Shown here piece after piece: positions 3,613 through 63,096 of a DNA stretch of 64,000 nt. The DNA lies in NCBI GenBank assembly GCA_037349105.1, contig JAYJMM010000123.1:4960001-5024000 (forward strand), in the 5' to 3' direction. The stretch is from Limnomonas spitsbergensis (Eukaryota; Chlorophyta; Chlorophyceae; Chlamydomonadales). A program made the translations under genes and the position numbers. The notes beneath the pieces were generated by a model. The model was given only the letters and a program-made list of their open reading frames with translations. It had not been told where the DNA came from and did not search any database. Position 1 is the first letter of the stretch. Each line of letters begins with the position of its first letter.

Positions 3613-6600
3613 ATGCTCCATCGCGCACAACCGGTCAAGAGTCGCAGCGGAGAACGCAGTGGACGCTTCGGATTGCTTAATCAATGCCCTCGTGACAGTC
3701 CGGCCCTCCGTATGGGCAAAGTACCGCGGAGACGGCATTCGAGCGTCGTCAGTGTCGGGGAGGAGTTTGTGGGGCTGACAGGGATGACCTATCTCATGAA
3801 GCCTGAGGTCGCTACCTTGTTCTCGGCCGTGATCGCGGTTTCCAGCGTCGGCCTCAACCTGTACGGCTCGCTCTTGACAGAAAAGCGGAAATCAGAGATC
3901 CAGAGAGAGGTGGGTCCTTGGTGTTCGTTTGTCGCTCAACGAAAAGCGGAAGCCTGAGGCATAGAGAGGGGTAGGTTCGCTCCATGTGCCTGCATGGCGC
4001 GTATGTGAATCGTAAGGCGGAACCGCGCCCATGCTTGTCCGCATGCAGATCATGCATCTTCATGTCACCCATGCCCATGCATTGCTGCATGCAGGCCAGG
4101 GCATTTTGCATCTCCATGCCATACGAGCGTAGCTGCTGCATGAATGATTTGCTTGCATCATGCGTCACGCTCACCGAGCATTTCCTTGTCAGCACGGGGT
4201 AGCAGCAACTTGGTGTCTGTACCCTAGACCCAGGGACAGAAGCTGATTCTTGTGGGAAGCTACAGTGGGCATGGCGTAAGAAATACTTGGTGTCTGTCCC
4301 GCAGACCGAGCGAGAGAAGCTGATCCTTCAACAGAGGCAGGAGCTGCGAAGTGTCCTGGCCAGGTACCGCGGACCCCTTCTTGAGGCCACATTTGATTTT
4401 GAGCAGCGAGTGTACCACCTGCTTGTCCAGTCTGAGGGGCTGTGGTCATCTGAGTGCGACGGGCCGGGCTGCAGCGAGGGCGTCAACGACGAGGAGGTTC
4501 TTTACAGCCTGTTCACATTGGCTCAGGTGACTTTAGGGCCCGGTAGTCAAGGGGTGTACTCCTCTTTTCCAAACAGGCATCTCCAGCTGTTTTTGAGAAA
4601 TCTCTTTTACTAAGTTGAGGTGTCTCTGCAGACGATTTGGGCTCCTCGGGTATTACCAGCTATCCAGTCAGCCTGTTCATGGTGGCCCAGGTTAGGAAAC
4701 ACCAGGAGGAGGAAATGTGCCTGCAGAGAGCTCGACCTGGACAGACAATGTGCCTTCATGTTTCACTGCTGTGTCGAAGAACAGCCGTGTTGTGGTGATA
4801 CATCATGGCTTCACTGCAGGCAGAGCCTTGTGTCAAGGGGTGGCAGTATTTCTTTCAGTGTGCCTCCGCATCCTTTCAGCTGCATTATGGCCCATGGTCG
4901 AGGTGGCCTGGTGAAGGTACCTTGTCTCACTAGCCGTATGCATGTTAGGGCTTGGTCCCCTATGGCCCAGTGGTGGTGGCCCACCAGCCTGTTTCAGGCG
5001 GGGTATGGTGTGCGCTAAAAAAACACCGGCCGGCAACAGATAAGATATATTTTGATGTTTGGGCTGATGAATGCAGCTTCCAAGCAGCTTCCTGACTCGA
5101 TGCTGCCTCGATTGCTGATGCAGTTCTTGGGCTTTGTTGAGGTGGTGCGAAGGGAGGGTCCTCGGGAACGGTCGTTCCTGCAGCACGGCAACCCGCAAGG
5201 CACTGACACGCTGGCCACCCTTGTGGAGGGCTTCCGCTTTGCCATGTGCGCGGATGCTGAACAGCTACTCAGATGGTGAGTGGTCATCTCACCAGTTTTT
5301 TTTAAGTGTTGCCAGACCCCCATTGGCATGCTGCTGGGCGGCCACCACTGCGCCTATGGGGACCAAACTTTGACCAACCTGCGGTCGGTAGCCCAAGCAG
5401 CTGGGCATGCTGTACCAGCCCCCTGCAGCTGAAGGTAGTGGTGTAGCTGAATTGTAGCTGATGTGTGCTGAATGAATCAACAGGCCCACTCGCTCTTCTC
5501 TTCTAGATCATGTGCATTGGATTTGTAACTTACCTTCAGGTTGTGGGGTTTTAAAGCGGATGCACTGGATGCTGAACCATAGTGCACAACTTGGTTCAAG
5601 GTGAGGGAATCTACAGCATATGCTTTGGATTCAGAAGTCAGAACCAGGCTTCCAGATCATTTATTACCGTAAAACCACTTTAACTCCGCGCACCCCCAAA
5701 AAAAAGAATTTAATTTTCGGCCGCGCACCCCAAAAAGAATTTAAAAAACGGTCGCGCAGCGACGAGATTTTAATTTAATTTAACGCCGCGCAGCACGGAA
5801 TTTAATTAAACATCGCGCATCACTGGAAATAATTAAAATTTTCGTCCGCGCAGCACTTTCAGCCAGTACCGTCAAACTCAGTGACAACTTCGTTTGATGC
5901 TAGCAGGATCCGCATACCGTAGTCGTCATCCCCCTCCTCCGCCGATTCCTGGCCTTAGAAAACGTGTGGCTAGTGGGGCCCGGGGGGCTCAGTGGTACTA
6001 CGTAACTTAGCAGTCCACCCTGAGGTCTGCAGTTCGAATCCTGTCAATGTTCAGCACTTTGAGTCCCGGAAGGGCTCATCCGAGTCATCAGTAGTGTTAC
6101 CATGCAGGGCTATTTAGGCACACTTGACAAGGATGCCTGAACGGATGTCGAAACAAACAGTCGCGCGCAAAATTTTTGTAAAAAATGCTGTTTTTAATTC
6201 ATACCGCGCACCCCCAAAATAATTGTTTGGGCACCTTACTGACGCTCCGCGCAGCGGCAATTTTTGTATTAATATTAGCGCGCAGCCATGTCCGCGCACC
6301 CCAATAATTATTTAACTACGAGCGGAGCTAAAGTGGTTCTACGGTAATCACCATCTAGCTTTCACCTTCTATGTTCATCCACGGCAGTGATCACCATCAA
6401 GCTGTGAAGCGAATCGTTTCTTCCTTTCGCCATTGGTTAGGAACAACTTCAAAATGGCGGATGGCAGGAGCGAACACCCAGGGTGCCGGTCCCGGGTGTC
6501 CCGGCTGCCCACGTTCGATGCAGGAAACCGCAGATCTACATCAGACGGCAACGGAAGCCATGATGCCGCAGCCACTCCTCCGACCCCCAGCAGCCGCTCG

Positions 6601-8202
6601 CTACGGCGCGGCTACAACTGCTCCATCGGTGATGGAGCCAGCCGCGACAGTGGCCGATCGCTCGGGTCTCAGACGCAAGGCCCCGTTGTGCCGAACCTGG
6701 GATTGTCCACGCACGAGGTGGATGGCCTCCACGTATCGCGGGGGATGCAGCGGGCCATCGGCGCCCTCATGGTTGTTACTCCTGTTGGTGAGGGCATCAG
6801 TGTTCATTGAGAGCATCCTTGTTTAGTGAGGGCATCCTTGCTGGGTGAGAGCATCCGTGCTTCGTGAGAGCATCTTTGCTTTGTGACAGCATCCTTGCTT
6901 TGTGAGAGAATCCTTGCTTTGTGAGAGCATTCGTGCTTCGTGATAGCATCCATGCTTCGTGAGAGCATCTGTACTTCGTGAGAGCATCCGTACTTTGTGA
7001 GGGCATCAGTGTTCGTTGAGAGCATCACTCATTCACTCATCACTGTTCAGTCCTGTGTGCAGTTGTGCACCGAACCACCTTTGGCAGGTTCACCTAGTGT
7101 TTTATTTTAGACCACACCATTCCGTCCTCCTCCTTCCCGCAGGTGCCAATCGCCACTACACCATGTCCTACGCTGATTTCTACCGCAGCTTCCAGACCGA
7201 CCCCTACATGGCAGGCTGGTTCAAACCTCTGTACGAGGACATGGTCGGACTGCTGAGGACCGGGGAAAGGTGGGCATTGTTATAGGGGCTCCCTCTCCTC
7301 CTGACTACGCCTTCCTCTGGGCCGAATGAGGTTGGGGTTCAGGTATTTTAGTATTTAGGACCAAGGGTTTCAAGGCTATGTCTCAGGGCTGCCCCCCAAA
7401 GCTTGTCATCAGCCCTTCCCACTGTTAATTCCAGCTACGAATCGGCTACATCATGGCCCAGGGTTGTAACGTGACCCTTGCCTACTTAACCTCTGCCTAT
7501 CTCTATGAAGGGAACATCCTTGCAGCTCTCTTAGTCCCTTGTTAGCCCACTGCAATAGGGGGCACTTACTTGAAAATTATGTAAAAAAATGGGTGTCGAT
7601 GCGTGTCACCCTCCTTCTCTGTGCTCCTCTGACGCGCTCAACTTGAAAAACTGTGCTTGCTTTGTACCAGGTGGAAGGGCCAGCCCACATTTCCGTTTCA
7701 CCGGTGGAGCCGCCTACTCCTGGTCCAGCAGCTTCTCATCGAGACAATGGACCTCCTGGACCCGATCTACGTGCGGGTGCCACTTTCGAGGCGGGTCAAG
7801 CTGAGCCCCATCGACCACGCTCCCCTTCCTAATGTAAGCTGCTGCACACATTTAAAGCATACTGCAAACCACGCCCCTCTTCCTGATGTGAGCTGCAGCT
7901 CGTTGGACTGGTCAGAATTTCAAATCTGAACTTGCACCCTGCCCCCCATGCCACAGGTGCAAGAGTACCGTGAGCGTATTCTGCTGCTAGAGGCAGCCAC
8001 AGACTCGATGATGGGGTTTGATGCTGCTGCCCCCCCTGTCGTACTCCCTGCGTCCATCATCTACGCTCTCTCAAGTTCAACGTCGTCGTCCTCACACTCA
8101 TCCGACGAGGATGTAGCTGATGTTCTTGCTACAAATAACGTGAAGGCTCCACGGGAGGCGCCTGTTCTGAAGGAGGTTCCCGAGCCTGCACTCTTTGATT
8201 GA
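3613..8202 (+). CDS. Conserved membrane-anchored protein of unknown function, seven exons
   Basis: Exons by hand: 3613-3909, 4305-4526, 5124-5275, 6441-6787, 7143-7269, 7671-7833, 7957-8202. All phases agree, giving 517 residues. An N-terminal hydrophobic helix (about residues 60-85, ending GLNLYGSLL) precedes TEKRKSEIQRE and a long helical region. Conserved-looking blocks are RYRGPLLEATFDFEQRVYHL, VEVVRREGPRERSFLQ, GTDTLATLVEGFRF, SRGMQRAIGALM and LLIETMDLLDP. I recognise this combination from uncharacterised plant and algal proteins but know no function. Exon 4 adds a Ser/Arg-rich low-complexity stretch; the tail is a Ser-rich acidic segment. The first ATG at 3613 could be replaced by 3712 or 3784. 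Introns hold extra copies of the neighbouring exon edges, a TIR element and DR1 copies. No catalytic motif was seen. Confidence 0.8.
3937..3985 (+). repeat. Decayed duplicate of exon 1 tail plus donor
   Basis: CGAAAAGCGGAAGCC...AGAGAGG|GGTAGG repeats, with changes, the exon 1 end AGAAAAGCGGAAATC...AGAGAG|GTGGGT at 3878-3914. It lies directly downstream in intron 1. Confidence 0.6.
4208..4256 (+). repeat. Decayed duplicate of exon 2 head plus acceptor
   Basis: ACTTGGTGTCTGTACCCTAG followed by ACCCAGGGACAGAAGCTGAT mirrors the real acceptor and exon 2 start, ACTTGGTGTCTGTCCCGCAG and ACCGAGCGAGAGAAGCTGAT at 4285-4324. The offset is about 78 bp, upstream in intron 1. Confidence 0.75.
4668..4695 (+). 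repeat. Decayed duplicate of exon 2 tail plus donor
   Basis: AGCCTGTTCATGGTGGCCCA|GGTTAGG repeats the exon 2 end AGCCTGTTCACATTGGCTCA|GGTGAC (4506-4529). It lies in intron 2. Confidence 0.55.
4865..5005 (+). repeat. DR1 dispersed repeat, plus orientation
   Basis: Begins at a TTCAGCTGCATTATGGCCC head, runs through GGCTTGGTCCCCTATGGCCC and ends in a CCCAGTGGTGG core. Diverged from the 61.26 kb copy. Confidence 0.6.
5305..5475 (-). repeat. DR1 dispersed repeat, minus orientation
   Basis: Reverse-oriented copy in intron 3: GGCCACCACTGCGCCTATGG, then GCCCAAGCAGCTGGGCATGC, ending with AGCTGAATTGTAGCTGATG, the reverse complement of the DR1 head. Confidence 0.7.
5664..6347. mobile_element. Non-autonomous TIR element (MITE-like), 684 bp, in intron 3
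   Basis: The left end TTACCGTAAAACCACTTTAA matches the inverted right end (TTACCGTAGAACCACTTTAG when reverse complemented). The interior is AT-rich with repeated GCGCACCCC and GCGCAGC blocks. No transposase ORF is present, and no target-site duplication is convincing. Related ends occur at 61839-62133 and 63956 onward. Confidence 0.7.
5985..6046 (+). other. tRNA-like segment (box A/box B) inside the TIR element
   Basis: GGGCTCAGTGGTA resembles box A, and CAGTTCGAATCCTG about 34 nt later resembles box B, the spacing of tRNA genes. Stems of the T-arm pair only poorly, so this is a decayed tRNA-derived segment (SINE-head-like) rather than a working tRNA. Confidence 0.4.
6788..7022 (+). repeat. 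19-20-bp minisatellite built from the exon 4 donor
   Basis: About 12 units of GTGAGAGCATCCGTGCTTC type begin exactly at the exon 4 5' splice site (GTTG|GTGAGGGCATCAGTG). Each unit therefore carries a GTGAG donor-like sequence. It fills most of intron 4. Confidence 0.85.
7876..7908 (+). repeat. Decayed duplicate of exon 6 tail plus donor
   Basis: CCACGCCCCTCTTCCTGAT|GTGAGCTGCAGC repeats the exon end CCACGCTCCCCTTCCTAAT|GTAAGCTGCTGC (7815-7845). Both keep a usable GT donor, so alternative 5' splicing is possible. Confidence 0.7.
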
Positions 8203-9099
8203 TACTTGCTCATGAATTTGCTTGCAGTGCAAGCAAGTGATTATTAAAGACTACCTTGGGTCCTTCATAGAGAAATAGTGGCCATGCTAACCAACTGATG
8301 AGGTCCAAGTGTCACATGCTTTGAAGTTGCGTGCGATGACCTGGCATCTAATAAGACACAAGAATTAGTGAAAAGGCTAGATGTGATCGCCATACTTGGC
8401 ATGGCATAGGAAACAGTGTACAGTTATAATGACATGTGTACATATTTTGGGGGGTATGCCATGACAACCTTAGCAGTTGCTCATACTTTAAAGTACGGCA
8501 GTTGCCCCGCCTTCACATCCCAATGCTGTATATTAGCATGGTTTTCACAACTCACCTCATCTGTCCTCATCAGCTTAATTTGGGGTTTGGTCGATAGTGC
8601 TGATTCTGACTGCCTCCACTTGAGGCAGGCTCATAACTGCATGATGATAATAGTGTGAACTGACTGGCATGTATCATGGGATGCCATGCGTGCGAAGCAG
8701 CGCGCATGAAGTGCCCTTTATAGTTTATTCTATATGTTGTCGGGCATACTTGACAGCCAGCACCTGTATTTCAGTTAACGAAATGAATTGAGAGATCATG
8801 ACACTTCCTTGGAATGCAGTGAATTGTAGTCGCAAACATCAAGGTGGATCATACACTCTACCTGATACGCAGGACCAAATAACTTTGCATAAGTGCGCCG
8901 ATTGCCATTACCGGTTTATCGGCTGTCATGTCAGATCCAATAGTATGCCATCTTACGTTCGCAACCACCCGGATGGCGCCAAAACAAACCACCTATTTGG
9001 TGTCCTTTCCCAGACAGGCCCAGGTACAATATAAAGAGAGCGAACGATGTTAAAGTCTTGACAAATACCTAGGCACATTTACACACAACGCAAACAAAG
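8203..9099. other. Intergenic region between two plus-strand genes
   Basis: This stretch holds the 3' flank of the unknown gene and presumably the promoter of the PDI gene. It is AT-richer than the exons. I see no TATA box I would defend and no repeat family. Confidence 0.5.
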
Positions 9100-12056
9100 A
9101 TGAGTCGGTCTCACATACTAGCCCTGCTGATGGGATGCCTACTACTTGCGATCCCCTTCTCCCGCAACTCTGCTTTCGCCGAAGACGAGGATGCTGATGT
9201 CGCCGGTGACGTTGTTGTATTAACAACCAAGAACTTCGATGCAATTGTTGGAAAGTCGAAGTTTGCACTGGTGCGGTGACGAGATCTTGCCATTTGTATC
9301 GGCTGGTTCGAGGTGACAAGACTTGATCAAGTGGAATGCATTTGTAGGTTGAGTTCTATGCCCCCTGGTGCGGCCACTGCAAGGTAAGCGACTTACAGCT
9401 TTCGCTGCCTGAACAATGACTGACATGACAAGTTTTGTTTTGTTGACAGACTCTGGCCCCTCACTACGAGACGGCAGCCACGGAGCTGAAGGATTATGAT
9501 GCTTCCATCGTCATTGCCAAGGTAAACGTTTCAAGATCTCATGATCTTGGTTACTGTGACTGAATTCCCCTGCTTAAATCTTCGCGAACTATCTCTGTAG
9601 GTTGATGCCACAGTTGAGAGCGAGCTTGGAACCCAGTTTGAGGTCAAGGGGTATCCCACGATCAAGTGGTTCATCGATGGAGAGATGGCCGCGGACTACA
9701 ACGGAGGCCGGGATGCGTGAGTCTACACTAAATTTTGATGTGTATACGTGAATGTCACATATCATCTCGACGTGTCCTTTTCCTGGCACTGCAGTGCTGG
9801 GATCGTCTCCTGGATCAAGAAGAAGACTGGACCTTTTGCCACCACTGTGGAGTCGGTTGATAAGCTCGAGGACATGGAGAAGGAAGCCCCAGTCCTGATG
9901 GTTGCCTACTTCAAGGAGCTCTCTGTGAGTTCAGCGTTGGCATGCAGCCAAGATTATGCAAGAGCCAATCCACTACTGCCATTGCCTTAAGAACTTGAAT
10001 GATCCTGCTGAGCCATGCCTGTGACTACCTCAGGGTGCTGAGTATGACGAGTTTAAGAGCGTCGCCCTGAAGACGGAGGATGTGCCCTTCGCACAGACAA
10101 CTGATGCCGCTGTTGCTAAGGCTGCTGGTCTTACCACCTTCGGTATCGCAGCTGTGAAGAACTTTGTTGGTGAGCTCCCTCCGCACCATTACATTATATG
10201 AAAGTGGCGACACTGTGAAAGCGATGGCCACACGCACCCACTATGTTGCACATTTGACTCAACCTACCTAATTTCCAATGCCAGGTGAGGCCCGTGATGT
10301 AGTGGTCTACTCTGGTAGCTTTGAGGCTACTGAGATCAAGGAATTCATCACTGCTGAGAAGATGCCGCTGACCATTGAGTTCAACCAGGGCAACTCTGAC
10401 AAGATCTTTAACTCTGGCATCAAGAAGCAGGTAATATTTCAGAGCAAGCTTTTGAATGCATGCCCAAGGGTCCCTCCCATGCATGCCTCCAGGACGCCTT
10501 GTAGTGTCGTGAATGCCCTGGTGCACACTTCATGATTTCTGGGTGATGCCTTCCTTAAACGTGGATGAACTTGATCAGCGCATGAAATTGACCACGTCCT
10601 GCCATTCATGTCCCTGAACAGATCATTGTCTGGGGTGCAGCTGATTTCTTCACCGCTGAGTCCAAGCCATTCGCGGCCGTGCGTGCTATGGCCAAGGCCA
10701 TGAAGGGCAAGCTTGTGTTTGTCACAGCCAACAACGAGGGTGATTCCCACGAGCCTATTACAAACTACTTTGGCCTCAAGGGAGTAGAAGGACCTGTGGT
10801 AGGTTTTCAGGCTACAGACTGAGCTATCATTCCTTATGTACAATTGCTGGGGCTGATGTGAGTAGATCATTCTTAACTCCTTCATCATTCCTGATCTAAT
10901 TGCAATCTGTGGTGGGTATTTGAAGTTGAGGGCCTAAGAAAGAGAGGTTTTGAAGCTATTGAGTACTTTCAATGCTACCCTTGCTTGATCAGTGAGCATT
11001 GCCAACATCTTGGTACCTGGTATAGCAATTTGGTACCTGGTATAGCAATTTGGCATTCTTACCCTGGCAAGGGGCATGTTGCAAGATCCCATGATCTGTA
11101 TGTGTGACTGAATCCCTAGTTCCCCACCTATTTTGACTGCAGATCATGGGTTTCGAGATGGAGAAGAACAAGAAGTACAAGTACACTGGTGAGCTCACCG
11201 AGGAGGCCCTGATTGCGTTCGGTCAGAGTGTCGTTGATGGAACTGCCGAGGCTGATTACAAGTCTGCGCCAATCCCCGACGAGCCCACTGATGGTGGCGT
11301 GTCAATCATTGTCGGCAAGAACTTCGAGAGCATCGTGATGGACCCTACGAAGGATGTACTCCTTGAGGTAGGTCTCTAGGCCCCTGCACAATCTCGGGTC
11401 CTTCTGATTGAGTGAAGTGCTTGAGACCACTTCCAAGTGTTTGAACTCTTGACCGGTTAGCCAGAAAACACAGGTGGAAATTCTTGGGGGGAGCTGTCTG
11501 ACAAACTTAAACATGTCTCTATCCCTGATTTACAGGTATACGCACCCTGGTGCGGCCACTGCAAGAAGCTGGATCCCATCTACAAGAAGCTGGCCAAGCG
11601 CTTTGCATCTGTTGACAACGTTGTGATTGCCAAGATGGATGGCACTGAGAACGAGCACCCCAACGTTGAGGCGAAGGGCTACCCCACCATCCTCTTCTTC
11701 CCTGCTGGCGAAAAGACCCCCATCACCTTCGAAGGCGGTGACAGGAGCCTCAAGGTGAGCTGAAAGACTGTCGTGCTTTCTGCATCATGCGAGAGGAGGT
11801 TCACCTTCTGCTGCCCTGGTTTCCTTTCCATGTCAGGCGATGCCGTTGTGATGTGGGCCAGCGAACGTATTGACTTGAGAATGTGTCTGACTTCTGAATG
11901 CCTACCATACCTTCTGTCCATTCTGTATAATAATAGGCACTGACCAAGTTCATCAAGGCGAATGCTGTGAACGAGTACGAGCTGCCCAAGAAGGGTGGTG
12001 ACGATAAGGACAGCGAGGAGAGAGAGAAAGAGGAGACAGACAAGGATGAGTTGTAG
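9100..12056 (+). CDS. PDI: Protein disulfide isomerase (two thioredoxin active sites, KDEL)
   Basis: Eleven exons: 9100-9270, 9348-9383, 9450-9521, 9601-9716, 9795-9924, 10034-10169, 10285-10430, 10622-10798, 11143-11367, 11536-11754, 11937-12056. They encode 515 residues with consistent phases, close to the usual ~500 for classical PDI. A signal peptide (hydrophobic ALLMGCLLLAIPF) leads into an acidic linker. Thioredoxin domain a has APWCGHCK (Cys65/Cys68); redox-inactive b and b' regions follow; domain a' has APWCGHCKK (Cys409/Cys412) and the cis-Pro motif KGYPTI. The tail is acidic and ends in KDEL for ER retrieval. The enzyme forms and isomerises disulfides in secretory proteins in the ER lumen. 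Introns are short (66-344 nt) and clean, without exon-edge copies. The only repeat is a 20-bp duplication (TTGGTACCTGGTATAGCAAT type) near 11009-11050 in intron 8. Confidence 0.97.
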
Positions 12057-13869
12057 AGGGTCGCTTGTCAACCTTATTTTTTAAGTTGGTCTCCTTGAAG
12101 ACATTGAGAAGCGAGATCCGAGGCTAGATTCCCAGTAGGGAAGCAGGATGGAGCGAGGGTGTGATGAACCATGGAACCGCATGTAGCGTGCTGTGCTCGA
12201 GACAGGTCTTTTGCATGGGGTGGAGGTGGAGGATGTCTGGAACTTAGTATTTCTCACGATTTGAACCTTAATAAATGTTAAGAAGAATGCAATATTTGAG
12301 TTGTCAATGGATACCATCGACTAGAGAGTTGAGAACGGTGCATACCCGCTGGGTCCTGTGGATCGCTTGGCCGCGAGTAGCTGGGAGGGAATGACTCATT
12401 CCAGGTAACGTGCACAGCCAGGACCATGGTGCAGCCATGCCCCCTCCTACGCTGCGGGGCAGGAACATGAAATCCAACGATCTGGATAGGGGGAGGTGAT
12501 ATTGGGTGGTGGGCTCGATCTCTCTACCTTAAGAATATGGCTAGCACCAGCGTTGTACCACAGGACCATTTATCAAGGGACTGGTAACTACTGATTGGGA
12601 TCTACGACAGGGAAGGATTTGATGCAATTTGGTACCTTGCACGTTTTAATCACTAACTAGATCCTGCAGCGAGGGAGGGCAAAAACAAAAAAATCGACCC
12701 CACGTCCCTTTTTGTAGAGCTAAACGAGACCGTTCCATACCTATTTTAAACATGTTTTTGGCCCAGGGGGGTGGGTGCCTGGGTGGTCTCCCCCAAAACT
12801 CAACATTTCAATTTTCCAAACTTTTTATCTGGAGGTCTGTTGAGGCTGGCGGCGGCACCTGTGTTCTTCCTGCCAACATGAGTCTATTTACATCCTAGAA
12901 TGTTGCTTAAATTACCACATGACCCCCTGCCCCCCCACACTGAGGGTTTGGCTCCATTGGACACACCCCGAAACCAGCTGAGCTAGCCTTAGAATGAGCT
13001 GTATTATGCCCAGCACATGGTAGTGTGGGTCAGGTGGATCATGAATGAACCGATCACTTGTGGTCGTTGCGTCAAAGCCTAAAATCTGCTGACCTTGCAA
13101 ACGTCAGACGTCACCAGAATGGGAGAGAGTGCATGGCACGGATGGCAGCTTTCACGATACCATGCGATTCGAAGACTGTTGGCATGTCATCAGGTTACGA
13201 ATTGAAAAATACCAGTAGAAGCGCCTTAACGAGCTGATAAAAATTACTCATTACAGGCCCTGTAATTTTGAATTTTGACTGAGATATTTGAACTTCAATG
13301 GGTTCTGGAGGCGGGGGTGGGGGGGGAGTAGGCTCGTTGGGTGCTCTTTTAAGGGGGGACATGAAGACCCTGACTTTTTTTTGCTTCCCCCCCCTCGTCT
13401 TGCAGAACTATCTTTCAGTGAGTCCATGACGTGCCAACACACCGGCCCCCTGGTCATAAAATTCGGATGATGACGCTTATTTGTTGTACATGAATGCGGA
13501 CAAGGCCTCTTAACCATGAGGAATTGCAAAGGACATTTACACATTTTTCTGGATAACTGGTACCTTGTGTCTCTTAATCATAAGGAATAGTTGACTGAAG
13601 AATCATGTGCACCAAATCTTCCCTACGCACATTGCAGCTCCTTCAAAGCAGTAGCCCGCAAGACTCTAACAAAAACAGCACCACTTCGATATTAATCCAA
13701 TCCATGCACTCAAAGCCGCCACTATGGCTTGATGCTGCGCTGCACAATCAGAGCTTGCCTGTTGAGAATGTTCACACATTCCCCTTGCTGCCCCAGGTGC
13801 AACTCAGACCATGACATGTAGGTACCATAACATCCAAAGAGTTACTGGATTTCAAGATGTTACTAGCCT
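12057..13869. other. Convergent intergenic region between PDI and p34
   Basis: No conserved coding block is visible on either strand. The region has T-rich and G-rich runs around 13310-13390 and an AT-rich central part. It holds both 3' UTRs. ORFs here are short and lack recognisable motifs. Confidence 0.5.
12270..12275 (+). terminator. AATAAA polyadenylation-like hexamer after PDI
   Basis: AATAAA lies 214 bp after the PDI stop. The TGTAA signal typical of many core chlorophytes is not seen in this 3' flank. Single-site evidence only. Confidence 0.35.
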
Positions 13870-49959: not shown

Positions 49960-50075
49960 GCCATGGGGATAGAACCTTGATCAGCCTATGGCTGGTGGCC
50001 TGAGCAGCAGGGCAACCATGCTGCACCAGGTGCCCAGTGCACCTGCCCGCCCAGCTATAGCTGAATCCCACTGCA
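49960..50075 (-). repeat. DR1 dispersed repeat, minus orientation, partial
   Basis: CCTATGGCTGGTGGCCTGAG and CAGCAGGGCAACCATGCTGC, then CAGCTATAGCTGAATCC. Confidence 0.55.
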
Positions 50076-52356: not shown

Positions 52357-52605
52357 TATTTTCTATTTGAATGATCAGACGTTGATCTGATTCTGCCTGT
52401 CCTTGCATAAGCTTTTGCATTCGGCAACCATGGGTGCTGAGGGCTTATCAAGAAGGTAGGGAGCAGCTGCAAGGCAGATGCTTCAAGACAGGCTCGCTTA
52501 AGTCGATCTGGGAGACCACTTTCCACCCTTAAACCATGCCGTACTGAACAGGTCATAAAAACGTTCATAATCTGATCGGGTACCCCCATCAAGATATGAA
52601 ACCTT

Positions 52606-52920: not shown

Positions 52921-52991
52921 GTGAATAAGCGGGAATCAGGTGGGAATGAATGATGCAGACAGCAGGTTAGGTTGCCATCTTTCTTTTAATA

Positions 52992-53211
52992 CTTAGAGCC
53001 AATTCACACATAGTTCAGTTCGCCGTTTCGGTTGGTTGGTTCGGCGTCAGACAGCCCTCTTGCGGGAAGCTCAGTTTGGCGAAACCAAACCAATGCGAAA
53101 CCAACCGAACTGAAACTGGGGGTCGGACCCCTGGTTGCGAAACTGTGTGAAACAGAGGTACCCAGACCGGCCAAACTCAGCGAAACCAGCCAGGTGTGAA
53201 TCTGCTCTTAG
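52992..53211. mobile_element. Short TIR element (about 220 bp)
   Basis: Left end CTTAGAGCCAATTCACAC matches the inverted right end (CCTAAGAGCAGATTCACAC when reversed). Inside, TTCAGTTCG...CGGTTGGTT faces AACCAACCGAACTGAA, giving a long imperfect hairpin. No coding capacity. It sits between the small ORF and the SAND gene. Confidence 0.6.
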
Positions 53212-53254
53212 GCATAAATCATTTGAGGAACCGGCTGGAGCAGTGCAGTAGGCA

Positions 53255-55798
53255 TCAGGCTCCCCCAACAGTAGACAACGGCCTGCTCCTATCAAGCACG
53301 CGCATATCAAACGTGAACCCAACAAGCACGATCCCATCGAGCAGAGGCTCATCTAGTACCATCCCATCAAGCACATGACTATGACTGAGAGCCCATCCAG
53401 CATATGAGCAAGCCGCACCATTCCCCTGGTAGTGGCTTGCAGCTTTAAGGAGCATGTCCGACAGGCTCTGCGCCAAATGCCTCTGGGATCCATCGGAAAC
53501 GGAAAGAGCTGAAACCAGCCGCAGCAAGTCCCCCGCACGCCAGGCCTGCCTCTTGGAAGATCCTGGGGCTTGCTTGCCGTTGGGGGGGGCCTGCCGACCA
53601 GCACTTGTCGCCGGGCCCTCGATGGGCAGGCCAGCTGCGCCCTGGACCTCCAGCAGCTGCTGCTGCTGCTGTTGCACGTGGGCGTTCCACGCCGTTGCAA
53701 AGGGGAACGGCCGTGGGCCAGCGCCTTGCTCGGGCCTGCCACTGCCCCGTCCTCCCCTCCCTGGCCTGCTGCCTCCAACCGCTCCCGCGGGTCGCTCCCC
53801 CGTGGTTCGGTTGCCCGGTGGGACGATGTGCCTGGCGGCCAGCCACTGTTCCATGCTGCGCCCGTCCAAGGCGCTGCGGAGGCTGCAGCGCCACTTCTTG
53901 GATGCCGCTGCACCACAGTGTGCCTCAAACCCTGAGGGGGTCATCAGGCTCGCACTGCTGCCAATCGCGCTGCAGGCGTCACACCGGCATGTCACCTGCA
54001 GCGGGCAGGTGGGGACGAGGATGACAAGAAAAATGTCGAGCTGTATGGGGAGATGGAAGTACGATGAGGGCAGCAAAAACAGTCTATAACCCAGCTTACA
54101 ACCCCCTGGTTACAACCTAGGATCTTGTAGAGGTAAGGGGAATAATCTATGAAGAAATCCTTTATCCTGTAATTTTGTAGTAGGTACTGAAAGTATGGCC
54201 ATGATGGGAATGATGAGGACCATGACAAGAGGAATTTACCATGGCCACGAGAAGAGGAATTTCCATGACCATGATAGGAGGGATTACTTTCGTCACGAGA
54301 AAAGGAATGACCATGACCGTCATGGGAGGACTTTACCATCGCCACCAGAAGAGGAATGACCATGGCAGTGATGAGTGGCCTGGCTGAGCCGCGTCTCCTC
54401 CCTGCCCCGCCCAACCCAGCCCTACCTTCCAGTTAATAAGGTCCAAAACGCCTTTTGTCGCCCTACACAGCACTTCAACATGGGAGGGACGGTCCAGCTC
54501 CTGTAGCCCGGGCACTTGCAAGGCAGACGCAGCCATGAGCGGCAGTCTCTCATTTGATGCCGCGATTGGCTGGAAGCCCTGGAGCTCAGTGGCCGAGCCT
54601 GAGTATAAGTCAAAAACTTGCAGTTGCTGCTCCTGCTGCTGTTGCGGCTCCGGACCCTGGAGCACAATGGCCGAGCCTGAGTAGAAGTCCAAAGCTTGCA
54701 GCTGCTGCTGCTGTTGCGGCCCTGGACCCTGGAGCTCAAAGGTTGATGAGTCTGGATAGCAGTCTATGGCTCGCTGTTGCTGCTGCTGCTGCTGATGATG
54801 ATGATCTTGACCCAGGCCGGAGTGTCCTTGCAGGAGCATCCTTGGAGGCAGCTCCGGCATGGGCTTTACGGGCCCCTTAGCGGGTCCGAAACCAGCAGTG
54901 TGGTGGGGTTCATGGCCGGCGTTAGCGGCGTTTAATCTGTCAGTATGCTGGGATGCATCAAAGCCGTCTGCGTGACTCAGCAGCCTCCAGGTCTCCAGCC
55001 AATGCCCTATGGTGCAGCCCTCGGTGGCATGGTGGATGCTGGACCTCCACTCGCGGGTGGATCCAGCGCCGCAGTGCGCCTCGAATGCTGACGCGTTGAT
55101 GGGGCCGTTTTGAATCCGCTCAAGGCAGGCTGTGCAGCAGCAGGTGACCTGCGAATGTTGGATGAGGCAAGGATAATTTTAGGGTGCTTAAGCTACATTT
55201 GAGTCTCATGATGGCCCGCGACTGTTGGGCAGGGAGGTGTAGCAAGCCTGGCTGCTTGGGCCACCGATAGTAGGCCGGTCAAATTTTGGTCCCTCATGGT
55301 CCAAGTGGTGTCTCCCCAGCAGTGTACCCAAGGTGCTCTGGTGCACACCAAACAAACGCTTGTGCAAGGGAGGGGTTGTCTCTGGTGAGAGGTACTAGGG
55401 TGTCCTCTCATTGCTCATGAACCAGTGCTGCGAGTTTGCAGAAAATTCTGAGTGTATACATTCTTCATGGTTCAGAGGGGATTGCAAGGCCTGAATCTGC
55501 ATGGCACTTCTAGTGCAACCAACTAATTAAGGAACTCATTTGACCCTCTGGAATGTCACACCTGAAACGTGGACAGGCTCAGGATCCCCGTTTTGCCTCG
55601 GCACACTATCTCGACATGCATGCAGGGCATAACGTCTGAGGGGCCTTCGACTGTCGCCGCTGAGCGATGAATGAGCAGCGATGCGTCGCTGCCAGGTTGT
55701 TGTTGGGGCAACAACCCTGACGAACCTAGACAGCCATCCGTCGATTGATGACCCGCTGCGACTGGTTGATGGGTCTCGTGGCAATAATCACTGTCCAT
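53255..55798 (-). CDS. Protein with two SAND-like Cys-rich domains
   Basis: Three exons, 55798-55562, 55148-54426 and 53995-53255, all phase 0, encode 566 residues. The same module occurs twice: HVEIVCRGKTGILSLSTFQ + VTCCCTAC ... ASAFEAHCGAGSTREWRSSI, and HVEVLCRATKGVLDLINWK + VTCRCDAC ... TPSGFEAHCGAAASKKWRCS. The xFExHxGxxxxxxW pattern after a CxCxxC knot is typical of SAND and related (TDBD-like) DNA- or protein-binding domains of plants and algae. Each module is split by an intron at the same place (before VTC), pointing to duplication of a two-exon unit. Between them lies Gln-rich sequence with three ~22-residue repeats (FYSGSAIVLQGPEPQQQ). A chromatin or transcription role is inferred. 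An in-frame ATG at 55798 is the chosen start; an upstream exon is possible. Confidence 0.75.
55190..55355 (+). repeat. DR1 dispersed repeat, plus orientation, in a SAND-gene intron
   Basis: GTGTAGCAAGCCTGGCTGCT, TGGGCCACCGATAGTAGGCC, TTTTGGTCCCTCATGGTCCA and GGTGCACACCAAACAAACGC, a good full-length copy. Confidence 0.75.
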
Positions 55799-57081
55799 GG
55801 CAGCTAAAACGTTATGTCCAGGAAGGCTGGAACCCTATCAATTGGCATCATCTAGGTTGGGCCTCGTGGCGTAAATCATATTGGATGACGCAAACTGCAT
55901 ACGTTATATGACCGTGTTTGGATGAACATATTCAGCATTGATTGAGACCTTACAGGCCTTCAGACAGTGGAGGGGGCATGTTGATCAGCGATTCAGCACC
56001 CATTGTTCACACTTGGCAACCACTCACAATTGTCACACACACCAGCCTGGCGAGTACCGGTATGTCCGGAGAACAAATAAAACCAGGTGCGGCAGTCACT
56101 GACCATTTCAAGTTTTGCTCTGAGCGATGCAAACAGTGAATTGATGCACCGGAACAACGGCTAACCAATGTAGTTCCGTTTCACCCCCTGGGTTCACACT
56201 CTTCCAAGTAGATTTCAAGTGCCGTTGACAAGTTGAAGACGCATGAATCCCTCCCCTACCCGTAAACGATGCATTAATGAACATCATGCCGACTGGACTG
56301 AGCTTGTGGAACAAGCTTAGCGGCGTCACAAGTAAATTGTCGGTGAGTGCTGTTATTTCTGTTCACCCTTACATTTGCCTGAACGCCGAAGACGAGACAA
56401 ATTGAGATGCACAATTTCGCGTCATCTTAGGAAAAGGCTGAGGCGTGGAGGTCGAAGCCACAAGGCAAGTGCTTGCAACAAATTCTTGTCATGGCACCGG
56501 ACGTCCGCAGTTCGCGCATGACAGCTTGTCAGCGGTTGCGCAGGTTCAGCGGAGCAGAAGTTTAGCGATCAAAACGAACCTGGGCTACAGTTCCTTCTGA
56601 GGAATGTTCGTAGCAACCACGTGAGGCAGCTGTTTTTCAAAAACGCTCCAGGAGCTTACACAGAGACGACAGACGTGCAAATTCTGGTGAGGCCCTAACA
56701 CTGAATTATTCATTGCCAATTTGAGATCATGACATGCATCATCCGACCATGTTTCGAAGCGCATGCATGGGGGTGACAGCTGCAGGGTGACCACATTTAA
56801 GCATGAATGCATGTCGTTGTTTATTTTGGTGAGCAGCAGACCAACTTCAGGGGGCCGCCGGGCGGCCACCCCAGGGCCAATTGAGATCAAACCTTATCCG
56901 GCCTACAGCGGATGGCCCAAGCCCCAAGGAGCGGGGCCAGCTGCACCTGGACCCTTCGGCCGTATGCCGAGATGTTGCTGAAAAGCTTAATCACCCCTAC
57001 GTAAACAGTGATTCACTAAAAGCATAGGCTCCCCAATGGATCACTAGCTGGCCAGCTAACCCTTGCCGGTGCCCTGCTCAG
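55799..57081. other. Divergent intergenic region
   Basis: Lies between the SAND gene (-) and the first visible 5-phosphatase exon (+). It contains a minus-oriented DR1 at 56815-56985. No coding block is recognised; N-terminal exons of the 5-phosphatase may lie here. Confidence 0.45.
56815..56985 (-). repeat. DR1 dispersed repeat, minus orientation
   Basis: GTTTATTTTGGTGAGCAGCA, CCACCCCAGGGCCAATTGAG, CAAACCTTATCCGGCCTACA and GGATGGCCCAAGCCCCAAGG match the reversed family. Confidence 0.75.
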
Positions 57082-60000
57082 TGCGGCAGCTATAACGTGA
57101 ACGGTAAGAAGCCCCCGGAGCGGCTGTCCCTAAAGGACTGGATCGGAGATGCTGCTGACGGCGCCAGCAGACCTGCGGTGGTGGCGATCGGCTTTCAGGA
57201 GGTTGTCCCGCTCTCGGCTGGAAACCTTCTAGGAGGTGCGCGGTGCGCGGGGAAGGAAATGTCAGGGTGTCTGGGAAAGGCCGCCATGCATGGGAGGGAT
57301 TGAGGGGCTGCCATGCATGGGAGGGATTGAGGGGCTGCCATGCACGGGAGGGATTGGGGGGCGGCCATGCATGGGAGGGACTGGGAGGCTGCCATGCATG
57401 GAAGGGATTGGGGGGCGGCCATGCATGACCTTCTTTTTCCTTACTAAAGAGGCTGTATTGCTTTCTTTGTTGGCATATAACAGAAACAGTCGGTCTTTCT
57501 TGAAAGTAAAACGGAAAGAGGTCAACGATTTTCAAACAAGCATCTCTCCCAAGCAGGAGAGAGTGGAAGAGGAAAGTGTCCGTGGCATGGCTACAAGCAG
57601 TGTCCGCCTGGACAATTTATCAAGGCAGTGCAAAAGAAGTAAACAAAGGAATATGTCAGTGCTCCGTCTGCCCCCTCTCCCCCCTCCCCACCTTCTGCGT
57701 GCAGTGTCCGCCTGGACAATTTATCAAGGCAGTGCAAAAGAAGTAAACAAAGGAATATGTCAGTGCTCCGTCTGCCCACTCTCCCCCCTCCCCACCTTCT
57801 GCGTGCAGTGTCCGCCTGGACAATCATCAAGGCAGTGCAAAAGAAGTAAACAAAGGAATATGTCAGTGCTCCGTCTGCCCCCTCTCCCCCCTCCCCACCT
57901 TCTACGTGCTGTGTCCGCCTGGACAATCATCAAGGCAGTGCAAAAGAAGTGAACAAAGGAATATGTCAGTGCTCCGTCTGCACCCTCTCCCCCCTCCCCA
58001 CCTTCTGCGCGCAGTGTCCGCCTGGACAATCATCAAGGCAGTGCAAAAGAAGTAAACAAAGGAATATGTCAGTGCTCCGTCTGCCCACTCTCCCCCCTCC
58101 CCACCATCTGCGTGCAGTGTCCGCCTGGACAAACGTCAAGGCAGTGCAAAAGAAATGAACAACGGCATATGTCAGTGCTCCGTCTGCCCCCTCTTCCCCC
58201 TCCCCACCTTCTGCGTGCAGTGTCCGCCCAGACAAACGTCAAGGCTTGGGATCGAGCCATTGCAGTAGAGCTCAACGGAGAAGCATGGTGCGTCATTGGA
58301 CATCCTGCGTGCCATGGGCATGCAATGTGCCGTAGGCATGCTGTGGGCACTGTGCGTGCTAGGGAGATCCTGTGCGCTGGGGAGATCCTGTGTGTTGGGG
58401 AGATCCTGTGAGTTGGGGAGATCCTGTGTGTTGGGGAGATCCTGTGTGCTGGGGAGATCCTGTGTGTTGGGGAGATCCTGTGTGTTGGGGAGATCCTGTG
58501 TGTTGGGGAGATCCTGTGTGTCGTTGGCATGCCGAGTACAGTGGGCATGCTGCAATCATGTTGTCTGCTGTGGGTATGTTGTGTGCTGCGGACATGTTGT
58601 GTGCTGCGGACATGGCGTGGAATTTCAGCCGCAACCTACCGGGCCCCACGACAAGGGATGCGCCCCTTGTGTCTATACGCCTATCAGCAACGAATCAGCA
58701 CTGTTTGTGTGAGGATGCCTCAGCTACAATTCAGCTGCATCATGGCCCGTGGCTGGGGGGCAAGCTTTGCTGCTTGGGCCACCGGCATTAGGCTGGTCAT
58801 GTTCTGGTCCCTATTGGCCCAGTGGCGGCTGCCAACGACGGTCTGGATGACCGAATCATCCTTACTAAGTCAAACATAAAAATGTAGGCAGTAAATCAAG
58901 TAGCAAAATAATATCACAAAGAAACAAGTGTTGTTCTTCAGCTGTCCTATCCTTTTGCTCTGCTTCAGGGCCAACCGCCATTACGGAGTGGTCCTTGGCC
59001 CCGCAAATGGGGACATGGCAACGCATGAGAATCCCGTTGTGGACGAGCTGGAGGATAGGTGGTCCGGCTCCCCGCGCACCAGCCAGGCGGGGGCCGCCCA
59101 TGAGGGCGTTCAGGGCCGGATCCAAGCACTGACAGGTGGGCCTCTTACAGGCTGCCAGGTGGGCCTCCCACAGGCTGACAGGTAGGCTTGCCAAAAGCAG
59201 ACAGGTGGGCCTGACATAGACTGCCAGGTGGGCTTGCCAAAGGCTACCAGGTGGGCCTGACACAGGCTACCAGGTGGGCTTGCCAAAGGCTGACAGGTGG
59301 GCCTGACATGGGCTGACAGACGGGCCTGTCACAGGCTAACAGGTGGGCCTGACACAGGCTACCAGGTGGGCTTGCCAAAGGCTAACAGGTGGGCCTGACA
59401 CAGGCTACCAGGTAAGCTTGCCAAAGGCTGACAGGTGGGCCTGACATGGGCTACCAGGTGGGCTTGCCAAAGGCTAACAGGTGGGCCTGACACAGGACAG
59501 GTAGGTGGGCTGGCCGGAGGCTAACAGGTAAGCTTATCCGCTCAACTAGACAGCGCAAAAATCCAGTAGCGCTCTGGTAGCTTCTGTTGACAGGACCATT
59601 ACATTTCCCTTGGAACGATTAAGCTCGGGTGAAAAGCTGTACACAAGTTGTGATCTGAGTTCCTGGAACCCCGTGGTATATAATAATAAACCGCAGGGTT
59701 CCAGGAAAACCGAAGATTAAGTTTGCCTTCCCCCACCCCTAGGAAAATATTTGCTAAATTAAGCCCCGCAACCCTTTTTCATTGTTTATTAAGTCCCACA
59801 GGGGGGGGGGTATTGTTTATTACTTCATTAGTTCAGACACTGCCCGATTCCGACTGATTCCGATTGATCCCAACCGGTATAAACCGATTCCGCCTAGCGA
59901 CGCTATCGCGCACCCCCGATATTATTTACTTTCAGGGGCCTAGTTTAGGGTTCACGGAGCTTATCCGGCCTCGAAAATTATGCTTAAGCAGGAAAGCAAA

Positions 60001-62919
60001 GATAATATTCGGCATATTTGGTGGGGTTTTCATGAAGTGGGTGCTCTGAAAGTTGATGACGTCAAATCTGTCGTGAGCTAGTGAGACTAGGTCAGAAATG
60101 GTCATTACGGTATGCAAATAAACAGAAATGTATGGGTTGATACACTGCGTGCCGAGCAATGATCCGAGTCTATATGCACAGAGGTGGATGGACAGCCCGT
60201 GTAGAGGGACGAGATCGGCCTGCATGCCCGGAGCTTTGCCGTCTTTGTGTTGACTTGCGTCCTATGCTGATGGTGGTGCAGACAGTCGGGATGGCGGTCA
60301 CGTATACTACCAGGTGGCCTGCAAGCAGCTGGTTGGGTTGTACATCAGCCTGTGGGTGCGCAAGAGCTCCTTGCCGCACATCAAGGGCGTCCAGGCGGCG
60401 CAGGTGTCAACGGGTTTCGGAGGCTACCTAGGAAACAAAGGTGCGGGTGCGGGGGGTAGGCAGTGTAGGGGGGGTGGAGGAGCGGGGAGGGGGATGGTGT
60501 CAATGGGTTTCGGAGGCTACCTAGGAAACAAAGGTGTAGAGGGGGGAGGCAGTGTGGTGGGGGGTGTAGGAGCGGGGGGGGATGGTGTCAATGGTTTCGG
60601 AGGCTACCTAGGAAACAAAGGTGCGGGGGGTAGGCAGTGTAGTGGAGGGTGGGGATGGGGGGTAGAGGAGTGGAGCAGGGACAGTTTGAATGGTAGAGGC
60701 CATCTGGGCGACAAGGGTGCAGGGGGTAGGCGCTGTAGTAAAGTGCGGAGTATAGGAGACAGTTTGAATGGGCTTTCTGGGCAATTAGGGTGCGGAGGGA
60801 AGCCGCTGTGGTGGTGGGCGGAGGACTGGAGGAGTGGGCCCTGGAGTAGCGGGGGGCGGAGTGAGTTTGAATGTGCTTTGGAGGCAACCTGGGCAAAGAA
60901 GGCTAGGGGGGAAGGCGCTGTGGTGTAGTGCGGAGGTGCGGGCCCTGAAGAGCAGGGGCGGGGCGGTGTGAATTGGTTTCGGAGGCTACCTGGGTGACAA
61001 GGCTTTGGGGACAGGTGCTGTAGTGAAGGACGGCTGGGAGAGAAGGAGTGGGCCCTTCAGAGTAGGGGCGGAGACGGTGTGAATAGGCTTTGGTGGCTAC
61101 ATGGACAACTAGGGTGGCAAGCTTGGTCAGAGGTAGGGGTGTGGGCGTGGGCAGTAGTTGGTTTTATAGGCTACCTGTGCTGCAAGGGTGAGAGAGCAAG
61201 AGCAGGGGATGGGGGCGTACTGAGGGCGGGGATGAGGGTTAGGTGCACTGGTTGTCTTTGCACGCTTCAGCTACAATTCAGCTACATCACGGCCTACGGC
61301 CGTGGGTGCCTGGTGCAGCAAGACCTACTGCCGGGGCCACTGACCACAGGCCGGCCAAGGTTTGGTCCCAATCGGACCAGTTATGGCCGTCCGGCGGCCC
61401 CCCACAGGTGCTTTGGGGCATACTAAAATAAACACTGGTGAAGTGGGTGCTGGTGTAGCAGGGGTGGAGTCGTGGGCGAGATTCAGGCTTAAATGGGGCA
61501 GGGATGGAGGCAGGCGCTGATGCAGCGGGAGCAGGGGCAGGGTGGGGCGGAGGGGGGAGGGGGTGGGCTGATGCGCGGGCTTACTGCTTACTTGTTTACT
61601 GCATGCATTTTGGAATGGTGAAACAAACAATCTTGACCTTAACTAACTCTTCCCTCTTCCAAGCCCTCTTTCTCGCCCTGATCTTTGACAACAAACTTAT
61701 GTGTTTGTGTCTGCGTTCTGCGGGAAATTCAGGTGCTGTTGCGGTGCGGCTGTACGTGCACGATACGCCTGTCTGCATTGTGAACTCACACCTGTCATCT
61801 GGCGATAAGGTGCGCCCCTTAGGGTTTAGGGCTAAGGGTACCGTATAACTGGTTTCACTCCACAATTCATTTGTGGTTTGGGGGGGTCGGACCAGCTGCG
61901 TGGTTTTAAATTGATCAAAAATCAGCTGTGCGGACCAGTCGGTCACGGGCGGGGTGCACGGACACAAGACTCTGTCAAAACCAGTCGAACTCGCCGCTGC
62001 GCGGCCGAAAGAAAATCGCAATTTCCCAAAAAATTGCCGCTGCGCAGCGCAGAGTGATTTCCCCCCCCTGCATGGTGATTTTAATGAACGTGCAAATTAG
62101 GGGTGCGCGAACCGTATCCGGTTCTACGGTAAGGCCACTGTATTGCCACTTCATAGAGAGCTGACCTGGCCTGGGAGTGGGCAAGAGTAGTGCTCTTCTG
62201 ACCTAGCATGCATAGCATCAGGGGTGGCTGATACTCATCGTTATGTCAGTGATTAGCTTCTCCTGAAAAGGTGATGAATTCATTTGTTTGTGCTTTTCAA
62301 GGACAAATGAATAAGTCTCAGCAATAAATCAGTCTCACGTAGGATACTATACCTGTTAAGGCCATATCCAAGCACAAATTAGTTATGCTCAAACACTGCA
62401 CTGCCAGTACGCTGCTAGGGTAGTTATTTTACACCCATGTTTCTCTTTCCAGCTACAAGGCCCACCCTGGCAGGCCTCCCTGCAATTTCTGATGGTGGGA
62501 TGAGGGTCAAACCTGGATCGGCCTGCAGGCACAAGTGCAAGCAGCATGCCTGACAAGTGAAAGCAGCATGTCTGGCTGAGCATGGGGCTTCCGAGCCAGG
62601 AGGTACCGTAGTTGAAACGAAGCTGTGCAAATTCATTAATAAGCACTGGGCTCAGGTGCAGCCAGAGTGACTCCAGCTGCCCCAATGCTTTCCAAGAGGC
62701 ATACAGATTGAGCAGCATCCTACGCCCAGAACCCTAACCCTGAACCTTAACCCTGGACCTTAACCCTAAACCCTAACCTTTCCAGCCTGCCTGCTGTCCC
62801 ACAGGAAGGGGACGAGGCCAAGAGGAATGCCGAGGTGGCCGATATACTGCAGCGCTGTGACTTTGCCGCCGCCTCGCAATACGACCAGATCATGGCGTCC
62901 ACATCAGCCACTCTGCTAG
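57082..62919 (+). CDS. Inositol-polyphosphate 5-phosphatase (partial, both ends missing)
   Basis: Six exons join in phase: 57082-57235, 58221-58287, 58969-59135, 60282-60440, 61733-61809, 62805-62919. They encode the first two thirds of an IPPc catalytic domain: SYNVNGKKPPERLSLKDW, VVAIGFQEVVPLSAGN, NVKAWDRAI, YQVACKQLVGLYISLWVRK, GFGGYLGNKGAVAVRLYVHD, CIVNSHLSSGDK and EGDEAKRNAEVADIL. The GDLNYR and later catalytic blocks are absent and should lie beyond the window. Exon 58969-59135 adds a non-conserved insert (GPANGDMATHEN). Family enzymes remove the 5-phosphate from phosphoinositides or inositol phosphates in the cytosol or at membranes. Exons make up about 740 of 5,840 bp; the introns are packed with tandem repeats grown from four of the exon edges. 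Confidence 0.9.
57260..57432. repeat. 27-bp minisatellite, six copies
   Basis: ATGCATGGGAGGGATTGAGG plus GGCTGCC, directly after the first visible 5-phosphatase exon. Confidence 0.9.
57592..58220 (+). repeat. 103-104-bp tandem repeat, six extra copies of an acceptor and exon head
   Basis: TGTCCGCC starts at 57601, 57705, 57809, 57912, 58015, 58118 and, in the real exon, 58221. Most units have a C/T-rich tract and TGCGTGCAG|TGTCCGCCTGG, equivalent to the functional acceptor TGCGTGCAG|TGTCCGCCCAG. Copies are close to identical. Confidence 0.95.
58360..58525. repeat. 18-bp minisatellite, about nine copies
   Basis: GATCCTGTGTGTTGGGGA units in the intron after exon 58287. Confidence 0.92.
58720..58862 (+). 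repeat. DR1 dispersed repeat, plus orientation
   Basis: CTCAGCTACAATTCAGCTGC head, CTTTGCTGCTTGGGCCACCG, GGTCCCTATTGGCCCAGTGG; nearly full length. Confidence 0.8.
59136..59535 (+). repeat. ~24/48-bp repeat, about 16 donor-like units
   Basis: Starting at the real donor CTGACAG|GTGGGCC, units such as GGCTGACAG|GTGGGCCTGAC and GGCTACCAG|GTGGGCTTGCC repeat, each with a CAG|GTGGGC or CAG|GTAAGC donor-like junction. Confidence 0.88.
60441..61195 (+). repeat. ~90-110-bp repeats, eight extra copies of an exon tail plus donor
   Basis: After the real exon end GGTTTCGGAGGCTACCTAGG / AAACAAAG|GTGCGG, near-identical copies follow at about 60500 and 60590. Progressively decayed ones lie near 60685, 60770, 60870, 60970, 61080 and 61160 (for example GGAGGCTACCTGGGTGACAA). 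Confidence 0.9.
61262..61440 (+). repeat. DR1 dispersed repeat, plus orientation, best full-length copy
   Basis: Head TTCAGCTACAATTCAGCTAC, then GTGCAGCAAGACCTACTGCC, GGTTTGGTCCCAATCGGACC, and tail GCATACTAAAATAAACACTG. About 180 bp, no clear terminal inverted repeat. Confidence 0.8.
61839..62133. mobile_element. Short TIR element related to the 5664-6347 element
   Basis: Left TACCGTATAACTGG and inverted right TTACCGTAGAACCGG ends; interior with GCGCAGC and GGTGCGCGAACC blocks as in the larger element. Confidence 0.5.
62730..62790. repeat. Degenerate telomere-like CCCTAA repeats before an acceptor
   Basis: AACCCTAACCCTGAACCTTA and ACCCTAAACCCTAACC lie 15-70 nt upstream of the 62805 exon acceptor. 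Confidence 0.7.
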
Positions 62920-63039
62920 GTGGGTGGCAATGGGGGGGGGCACTGCTTGTTAAACAATTAACATGATGCTAATTCAATGGATGGGCATTGGAAGATTTGA
63001 ATGTCCGACTGGGGGTGGCTGTCATTTTGACACGGTCTC

Positions 63040-63096
63040 TCAATACGTCCAGACATTGGTTTCCTCGTCAGCCACACTGCTAGGTGGTTAGCAGCG
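63040..63096 (+). repeat. Decayed duplicate of exon 62919 tail plus donor
   Basis: CAGACATTGGTTTCCTCGTC / AGCCACACTGCTAG|GTGGTTAG repeats CAGATCATGGCGTCCACATC / AGCCACTCTGCTAG|GTGGGTGG at 62886-62928. Confidence 0.78.

Follow-up and report, generated by a model that had tools for sequence, protein, structure and literature searches.

Copies of exon–intron junctions within introns of Limnomonas spitsbergensis

Introns of Limnomonas spitsbergensis contain extra copies of their own splice junctions, which we found at about a quarter of the kinesin splice sites sampled. These copies are real and are not limited to the window, the 64,000-nucleotide stretch of DNA in which they were noticed (C123:4960001-5024000, from an assembly of 260,226,709 bases in 124 contigs). 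Very probably the best explanation is local tandem duplication that is blind to splice sites, with the copies at junctions tolerated through use of the outermost site. Excerpts of the paper describing the genome (260.248 Mb in 124 contigs, the largest of 10.736 Mb; GC content 54.15%) report 18,277 genes with 6.7 exons per CDS and introns averaging 788 bp, describe RNA-seq and IsoSeq evidence, place the alga in a clade with Chlamydomonas ICE-L, UWO241 and C. eustigma and relate genome size to transposable elements (PMC11228838); no mention of junction repeats was found in those excerpts. Nor did searches of open-licence PMC papers bring up a description of widespread junction copies in introns.

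Junction copies in the window and beyond it

Each exon edge was scored by local alignment of a 40-mer (30 exon and 10 intron nucleotides) against its own intron, and 1,000 length-matched stretches of other introns served as the null for window edges. Where the partner exon was unmodelled (46419, 35986, 48028, 31516 and 62919), a fixed flank of approximately 0.7-1.6 kb replaced the intron. The initial annotation had listed about 17 edges with junction copies. At p ≤ 0.005, 14 of the 17 carry a copy on the same strand and in the adjoining intron, namely donors 3909, 4526, 7833, 18128, 17499, 46419, 25495, 59135, 60440 and 62919 and acceptors 4305, 48028, 31516 and 58221; edges 17620 and 6787 are weak, and 35986 did not hold. 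The edges, with window positions, are as follows.

3909 to 3976, plus strand: donor 3909 with a single decayed copy of the junction (approximately 3940-3976), p = 0.001
4208 to 4305, plus strand: acceptor 4305 and an upstream copy at approximately 4208-4251, p = 0.001
4526 to 4692, plus strand: donor 4526 and a copy at approximately 4669-4692, p = 0.001
6788 to 7026, plus strand: 19-bp array beginning at donor 6787, with scarcely any exon edge (3 exon nt matched), p = 0.018
7833 to 7899, plus strand: donor 7833 and a copy at approximately 7868-7899, p = 0.001
18025 to 18149, minus strand: p34 donor 18128 and two copies, 48-bp unit, p = 0.001
17620 to 17821, minus strand: p34 acceptor 17620 and a weak copy near 17800-17820, p = 0.010
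17401 to 17499, minus strand: p34 donor 17499 and a copy with an exon part of 53 nt, splice dinucleotide unaligned, p = 0.001
46163 to 46419, minus strand: DEMETER-like donor 46419 and a copy of the exon edge, approximately 80 nt long (by eye), adjoined by 26/41-bp arrays, p = 0.001
48028 to 48600, minus strand: DEMETER-like acceptor 48028 and about four decayed upstream copies (by eye), p = 0.001
31459 to 31840, minus strand: acceptor 31516 and a 97-bp duplicate (TRF), with older copies upstream (by eye), p = 0.001
34470 to 35985, minus strand: array of 12 bp x 126 abutting donor 35986, exon edge uncopied, p = 0.14
25381 to 25495, minus strand: donor 25495 of a DnaJ-like segment and a copy with an exon part of 60 nt, splice dinucleotide unaligned, p = 0.001
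57597 to 58245, plus strand: array of 103 bp x 6.3 running onto acceptor 58221, p = 0.001
59132 to 59529, plus strand: 23/46-bp array beginning on donor 59135, with about 7 exon nt in the best copies, p = 0.001
60403 to 61130, plus strand: 5-phosphatase donor 60440 (GFGGYLGNKG/AVAVR, slash at the junction) and a 93-bp array with three good and some decayed copies, p = 0.001
62919 to 63093, plus strand: donor 62919 and a copy at approximately 63050-63093, p = 0.001

Scoring also returned two edges beyond the original list: donor 31382 (p = 0.004, but with 2 exon nt only) and an acceptor near 58969 (p = 0.001, score 22), which has no copy at a stricter score. The genes labelled PDI, RtcB and SAND in the initial annotation had been described as free of copies, and this holds for the six predicted introns of the regions taken to hold these genes (9000-13500 and 50000-56000), all of them short (59-385 nt). 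Tandem repeats make up 24% of the window and between 5% and 42% of each 20-kb stretch of C123 that was sampled. Short interstitial telomere-like repeats (GGGTTTA / AACCCT) lie at window positions 41011-41047 and 62725-62780.

The wider sample comprised ten 20-kb stretches of C123 and 27 kinesin loci. The kinesin loci were taken from 139 genome matches to Pfam PF00225 and were picked for compactness and several exon hits, blind to repeat content. Junctions were placed by reading frame, splice-site score (from the matrices of the gene finder) and profile length, independently of the gene finder's exon calls; 10 hit pairs without a consistent splice solution were dropped, and pairs with a profile gap outside -22 to +14 were skipped. 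This yielded 43 introns from 24 of the 27 loci, a small sample of one gene family that is biased to compact loci. Seven of the 43 are off the profile length by more than one amino acid, which leaves a strict subset of 36. Predicted introns were obtained with a self-trained HMM gene finder with a minimum exon length, trained on the ten C123 stretches and the window, which is prone to errors in repeats. The predicted set includes the window and the hinted kinesin loci; low-scoring genes were removed from it, as were exons shorter than 25 nt and introns of less than 40 or more than 6000 nt.

Junction copies were found at 12 of 43 kinesin donors and 11 of 43 acceptors, and 18 of the 43 introns have at least one; inverted controls gave 2/43 and 2/43. 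Among 180 predicted introns, 37 donors and 28 acceptors have copies at p ≤ 0.005. When these introns are restricted to those of at least 150 nt, the counts are 32 of 123 donors (25 spanning the junction) and 22 of 123 acceptors (21 spanning the junction), against 1/123 and 2/123 in inverted controls, although the inverted acceptor control rises to 10/123 at the looser p ≤ 0.05. Exon-interior controls in the predicted set gave 3/62 and 0/66.

The arrays run head-to-tail in direct orientation, as expected of local tandem duplication (TRF arrays): directly self-duplicated sequence constitutes 31.8% of kinesin intron sequence and 0.4% of kinesin exons, and inverted duplication accounts for 1.7% of the kinesin intron sequence. 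The corresponding direct and inverted values in predicted introns are 49.5% and 0.7%. Both units that were searched genome-wide are confined to their locus, bar one paralogue exon edge. The 93-bp 5-phosphatase unit matches its own locus only, and the unit of the kinesin locus L023 (C124:7568600-7572200) matches its own array and, for its exon part, a paralogue exon. Introners or transposon-derived introns found no support: the two units have no matches at unrelated loci, in a search that skips simple and very common words, and in the predicted set no donor junction matched another intron of the same gene (0/88).

Duplication at junctions and in intron interiors

The initial annotation had proposed that the repeats are seeded on splice junctions. 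This proposal was not supported by comparison with intron interiors, which are duplicated as often as junctions or more often. Among kinesin introns of at least 300 nt, copies were found for 11 of 34 donors and 10 of 34 acceptors, compared with 58 of 204 interior pseudo-junctions (39 of 116 in another draw). In predicted introns of at least 300 nt, 25 of 76 donors and 18 of 76 acceptors have copies, compared with 98/228 and 101/228 interior positions, and this lower rate at junctions raises the possibility of some counter-selection there. A profile of duplicated 30-mers falls from intron to exon with no peak at the junction. On the donor side, 49% are duplicated at intron position +120; the fraction drops to 33% at the donor itself and then, within the exon, to 16% at -30 and 5% at -120. 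On the acceptor side, it drops from 45% at intron position -120 through 23% at the junction to 0% at exon position +120.

A splice-site- or transcription-linked process that seeds arrays at junctions is therefore very unlikely, if the least so of the alternatives considered here. Two arrays do begin at a donor GT (6787 and 35986), and tandem repeats are reported to be commoner near intron–exon junctions in the green algae Chlamydomonas and Volvox (PMC3887541), yet the absence of a junction peak and the rate at interior positions argue against it. The intronic minisatellites of those algae resemble the present arrays in the density of tandem repeats in introns, with a rise toward intron ends. 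The excerpts of that survey do not describe exon-edge copies, whereas here the repeats contain the junction and show no enrichment at it.

It had also been argued that minisatellites placed by chance would not so often bear a correctly oriented exon edge. That argument was mistaken, as any head-to-tail array over a junction does so. The related statement that copies lie on the intron side was correct, and this is the layout to be anticipated when the encoded protein has to be preserved. The evidence is best read as junction-blind tandem duplication of about a third or more of intron sequence, together with purifying selection on the protein.

We hypothesize that local tandem duplication of units of approximately 12 to 170 bp, presumably by slippage or similar repair, strikes introns everywhere and often grows into arrays. 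When the duplicated segment straddles a junction, the intron would gain a copy of the exon edge and of the splice site. Duplications within exons would be purged by selection. Those that cross a junction would persist if the outermost site stays in use, because the mRNA would then be unchanged and the intron merely longer.

Splice-site choice among the copies

In agreement with the initial annotation, the outermost copy is the junction consistent with the protein, and from this continuity we infer that it is the one spliced. Protein continuity fits outermost use in the p34 and 5-phosphatase alignments and in the placement of kinesin junctions. The p34 model has a Pfam Tfb4 match, and its alignment to chains of TFIIH subunit 3/Tfb4 continues across 18128/17620 and 17499/16708. 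For the 5-phosphatase model, the alignment to synaptojanin passes through 60440/61733 and, less strongly, spans 57235/58221, and 93% of the model aligns to a Chromochloris protein; a protein search returned 22 hits, with Chromochloris best, Dunaliella salina lower and a top identity of 66%. The scanned pieces of the DEMETER-like gene and of the 'unknown gene' have no Pfam match above the cut-off. We take the former to be putatively DEMETER-like, from the initial annotation and from its motifs. Downstream of its exons lies the DnaJ-like segment (window 25495-24450; 25.9 bits at 25495, against a Pfam cut-off of 27.8), which may belong to the same gene.

Outermost copies thus seem to be used and decoys tolerated. 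Copies are present on both sides of kinesin introns (12/43 donors, 11/43 acceptors), and copies of intron edges inside exons are almost nil (1/43, 0/43, 0/78 and 0/75). Spacing and splice dinucleotides were examined in the first 38 of the 43 kinesin introns and the 15 curated window introns, two of which have a boundary one base off (58288/58970; acceptor 7142). The spacing to the nearest copy is not a multiple of three at 21 of 26 junctions, so use of an inner copy would usually shift the frame. In the window at 60254-60928, one forward frame is open through the first 93-bp copies (224 codons), so use of an inner donor there would insert in-frame residues.

Inner dinucleotides are kept approximately neutrally when averaged by locus (donors, 0.77 versus 0.79 at 16 loci; acceptors, 0.75 versus 0.76 at 10 loci). 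Summed over copies, the dinucleotide is retained by 30 of 38 inner donors (32.2 expected), and AG by 19 of 34 inner acceptors (27.1 expected). The acceptor shortfall comes almost wholly from one kinesin locus, L036 (C34:293250-296300), where the outer junction reads AG and every one of the 12 inner acceptor copies reads TG. At the same locus, two of six inner donor copies keep the outer dinucleotide and several read GC or AT. This loss of inner sites could possibly reflect selection against decoys or a change that preceded amplification. Inner copies may also be used in some transcripts.

The simplest account of outermost use would be that the exon is recognized as a unit, so that the site closest across the exon prevails. 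Under exon definition, preference goes to the outermost site at both ends; under intron definition, and in classical experiments, it goes to the site closest to its partner on the other side of the intron, here the inner copy (excerpts of PMC9225289). As the two modes thus favour different copies, the genome constitutes a natural test. The present case resembles the proximity rules of that work, exon- and intron-centric, in the competition between sites of equal strength, with the outermost favoured under exon definition. It differs in that the rules come from human transcripts and minigenes; here the copies are natural and tandem, and their use is judged from protein only.

Alternatively, junction copies might act as recursive or dual-specific splice sites through which arrays are removed stepwise. 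Many exon ends read CAG/GT, so that a copy can resemble a joined acceptor and donor, and exon ends in AG are nominally commoner with copies than without (17/20 versus 23/31; 11/15 versus 13/28 in the predicted set). A known example of dual-specific sites in tandem repeats is provided by polyubiquitin genes (PMC10809524), which share with the present introns the occurrence of splice sites within a tandem array. According to the excerpts of that work, the polyubiquitin repeats are coding and variably spliced, whereas the present copies lie in introns and show no significant enrichment of dual-site character. Whole-site scores give no significant sign that exon ends with copies are more acceptor-like than those without (Mann–Whitney U test, p = 0.68 and 0.93) or that exon starts with copies are more donor-like (p = 0.73 and 0.82), with 11-20 edges with copies per test. 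We consider stepwise removal very improbable, ranking just after seeding.

The copies could also be an artefact of gene model or assembly, with the repeats being coding or the edges misplaced. Some predicted exons in arrays are doubtful, and the placement of at least one kinesin junction (L032, 152-215/222-265) seems wrong. Nonetheless, copies remain at 10 of 36 donors and 10 of 36 acceptors in the strict kinesin subset (within one amino acid of the profile), in which the L032 junction is included. The p34 and 5-phosphatase proteins align through their edges, and the copies have diverged in most of the listed arrays. There is little likelihood of an artefact, and we place it third among the alternatives.

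If about a quarter of junctions carry adjoining copies, an extrapolation to the 18,277 genes and 6.7 exons per CDS of the genome paper (PMC11228838, in excerpt) from a rate in 43 introns of one family, the genome holds thousands of natural tests of spliceosome choice. These vary in copy number, spacing and divergence, and an unduplicated paralogue is sometimes at hand. Stated in full, the proposal is that the spliceosome picks the outermost of near-identical sites at both intron ends over tens of thousands of junctions, that intact decoys are neutral and that border-crossing duplication is one of the main routes by which introns and the genome grow; we hold it tentatively, at a little short of an even chance. 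If true, it would be a natural, genome-wide counterpart of the duplicated-splice-site experiment and would place a growth route for introns beside transposons.

Paralogous introns and intron length

Tandem duplication over exon–intron borders had been proposed to lengthen introns, and paralogue pairs, the greater length of introns with copies and the near absence of copies from exons support this. The 1190-nt intron of kinesin L023 begins with nine copies of an 89-bp unit (the final 49 nt of the exon and the initial 40 nt of the intron), the inner ones 96-100% identical over the aligned part. Its putative donor is a GC donor (CAG/GCAAGT) in all nine copies, whereas the paralogue L024 uses a GT donor. 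The exon end of L024 is 92% identical to that of L023; its intron is 534 nt long, has no copy of the L023-type donor junction and has one acceptor-side copy that is absent from L023. A third paralogue, L027, has an 825-nt intron with a weak, decayed donor copy only.

In a second paralogue pair, the 1126-nt intron of L026 contains seven 82-bp acceptor copies; that of its paralogue L029 (541 nt) has none, and on its donor side it carries a decayed duplicate of 76.5% identity. Gain of an array would be a simpler reading of these sequences than its loss in the other paralogue. Birth of whole introns through tandem duplication of AGGT-carrying exon segments is hardly credible, although it is a documented mechanism (PMC3443670, PMC4974935) that also yields extra splice sites: it predicts a copy of the upstream exon end directly before the acceptor, a signature found at 0 of 26 junctions (nearest copy only). 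In the potato RdRp gene, tandem duplication likewise crossed an intron–exon boundary and doubled the splicing signals, and the excerpts of that study describe a new intron (PMC4974935); here existing introns appear lengthened, often by multi-copy arrays.

This lengthening by junction-crossing duplication is consistent with intron sizes. Among kinesin introns, the median is 1007 nt for the 18 with copies and 465 nt for the 25 without (p = 0.0003), as expected, though longer introns give copies more room. Some further paralogous junctions follow the same trend, with an acceptor copy confined to the longer intron: L026 and L029 at the 173 junction (1075 versus 546 nt) and L027 and L024 at 174 (543 versus 179 nt). 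Others differ in length without junction copies (L033 and L046, 732 versus 393 nt; L023 and L024 at 174, 465 versus 179 nt), and L044 and L047, also without copies, are near-equal (366 versus 382 nt). These mixed comparisons indicate that intron length has several sources, junction-crossing arrays among them.
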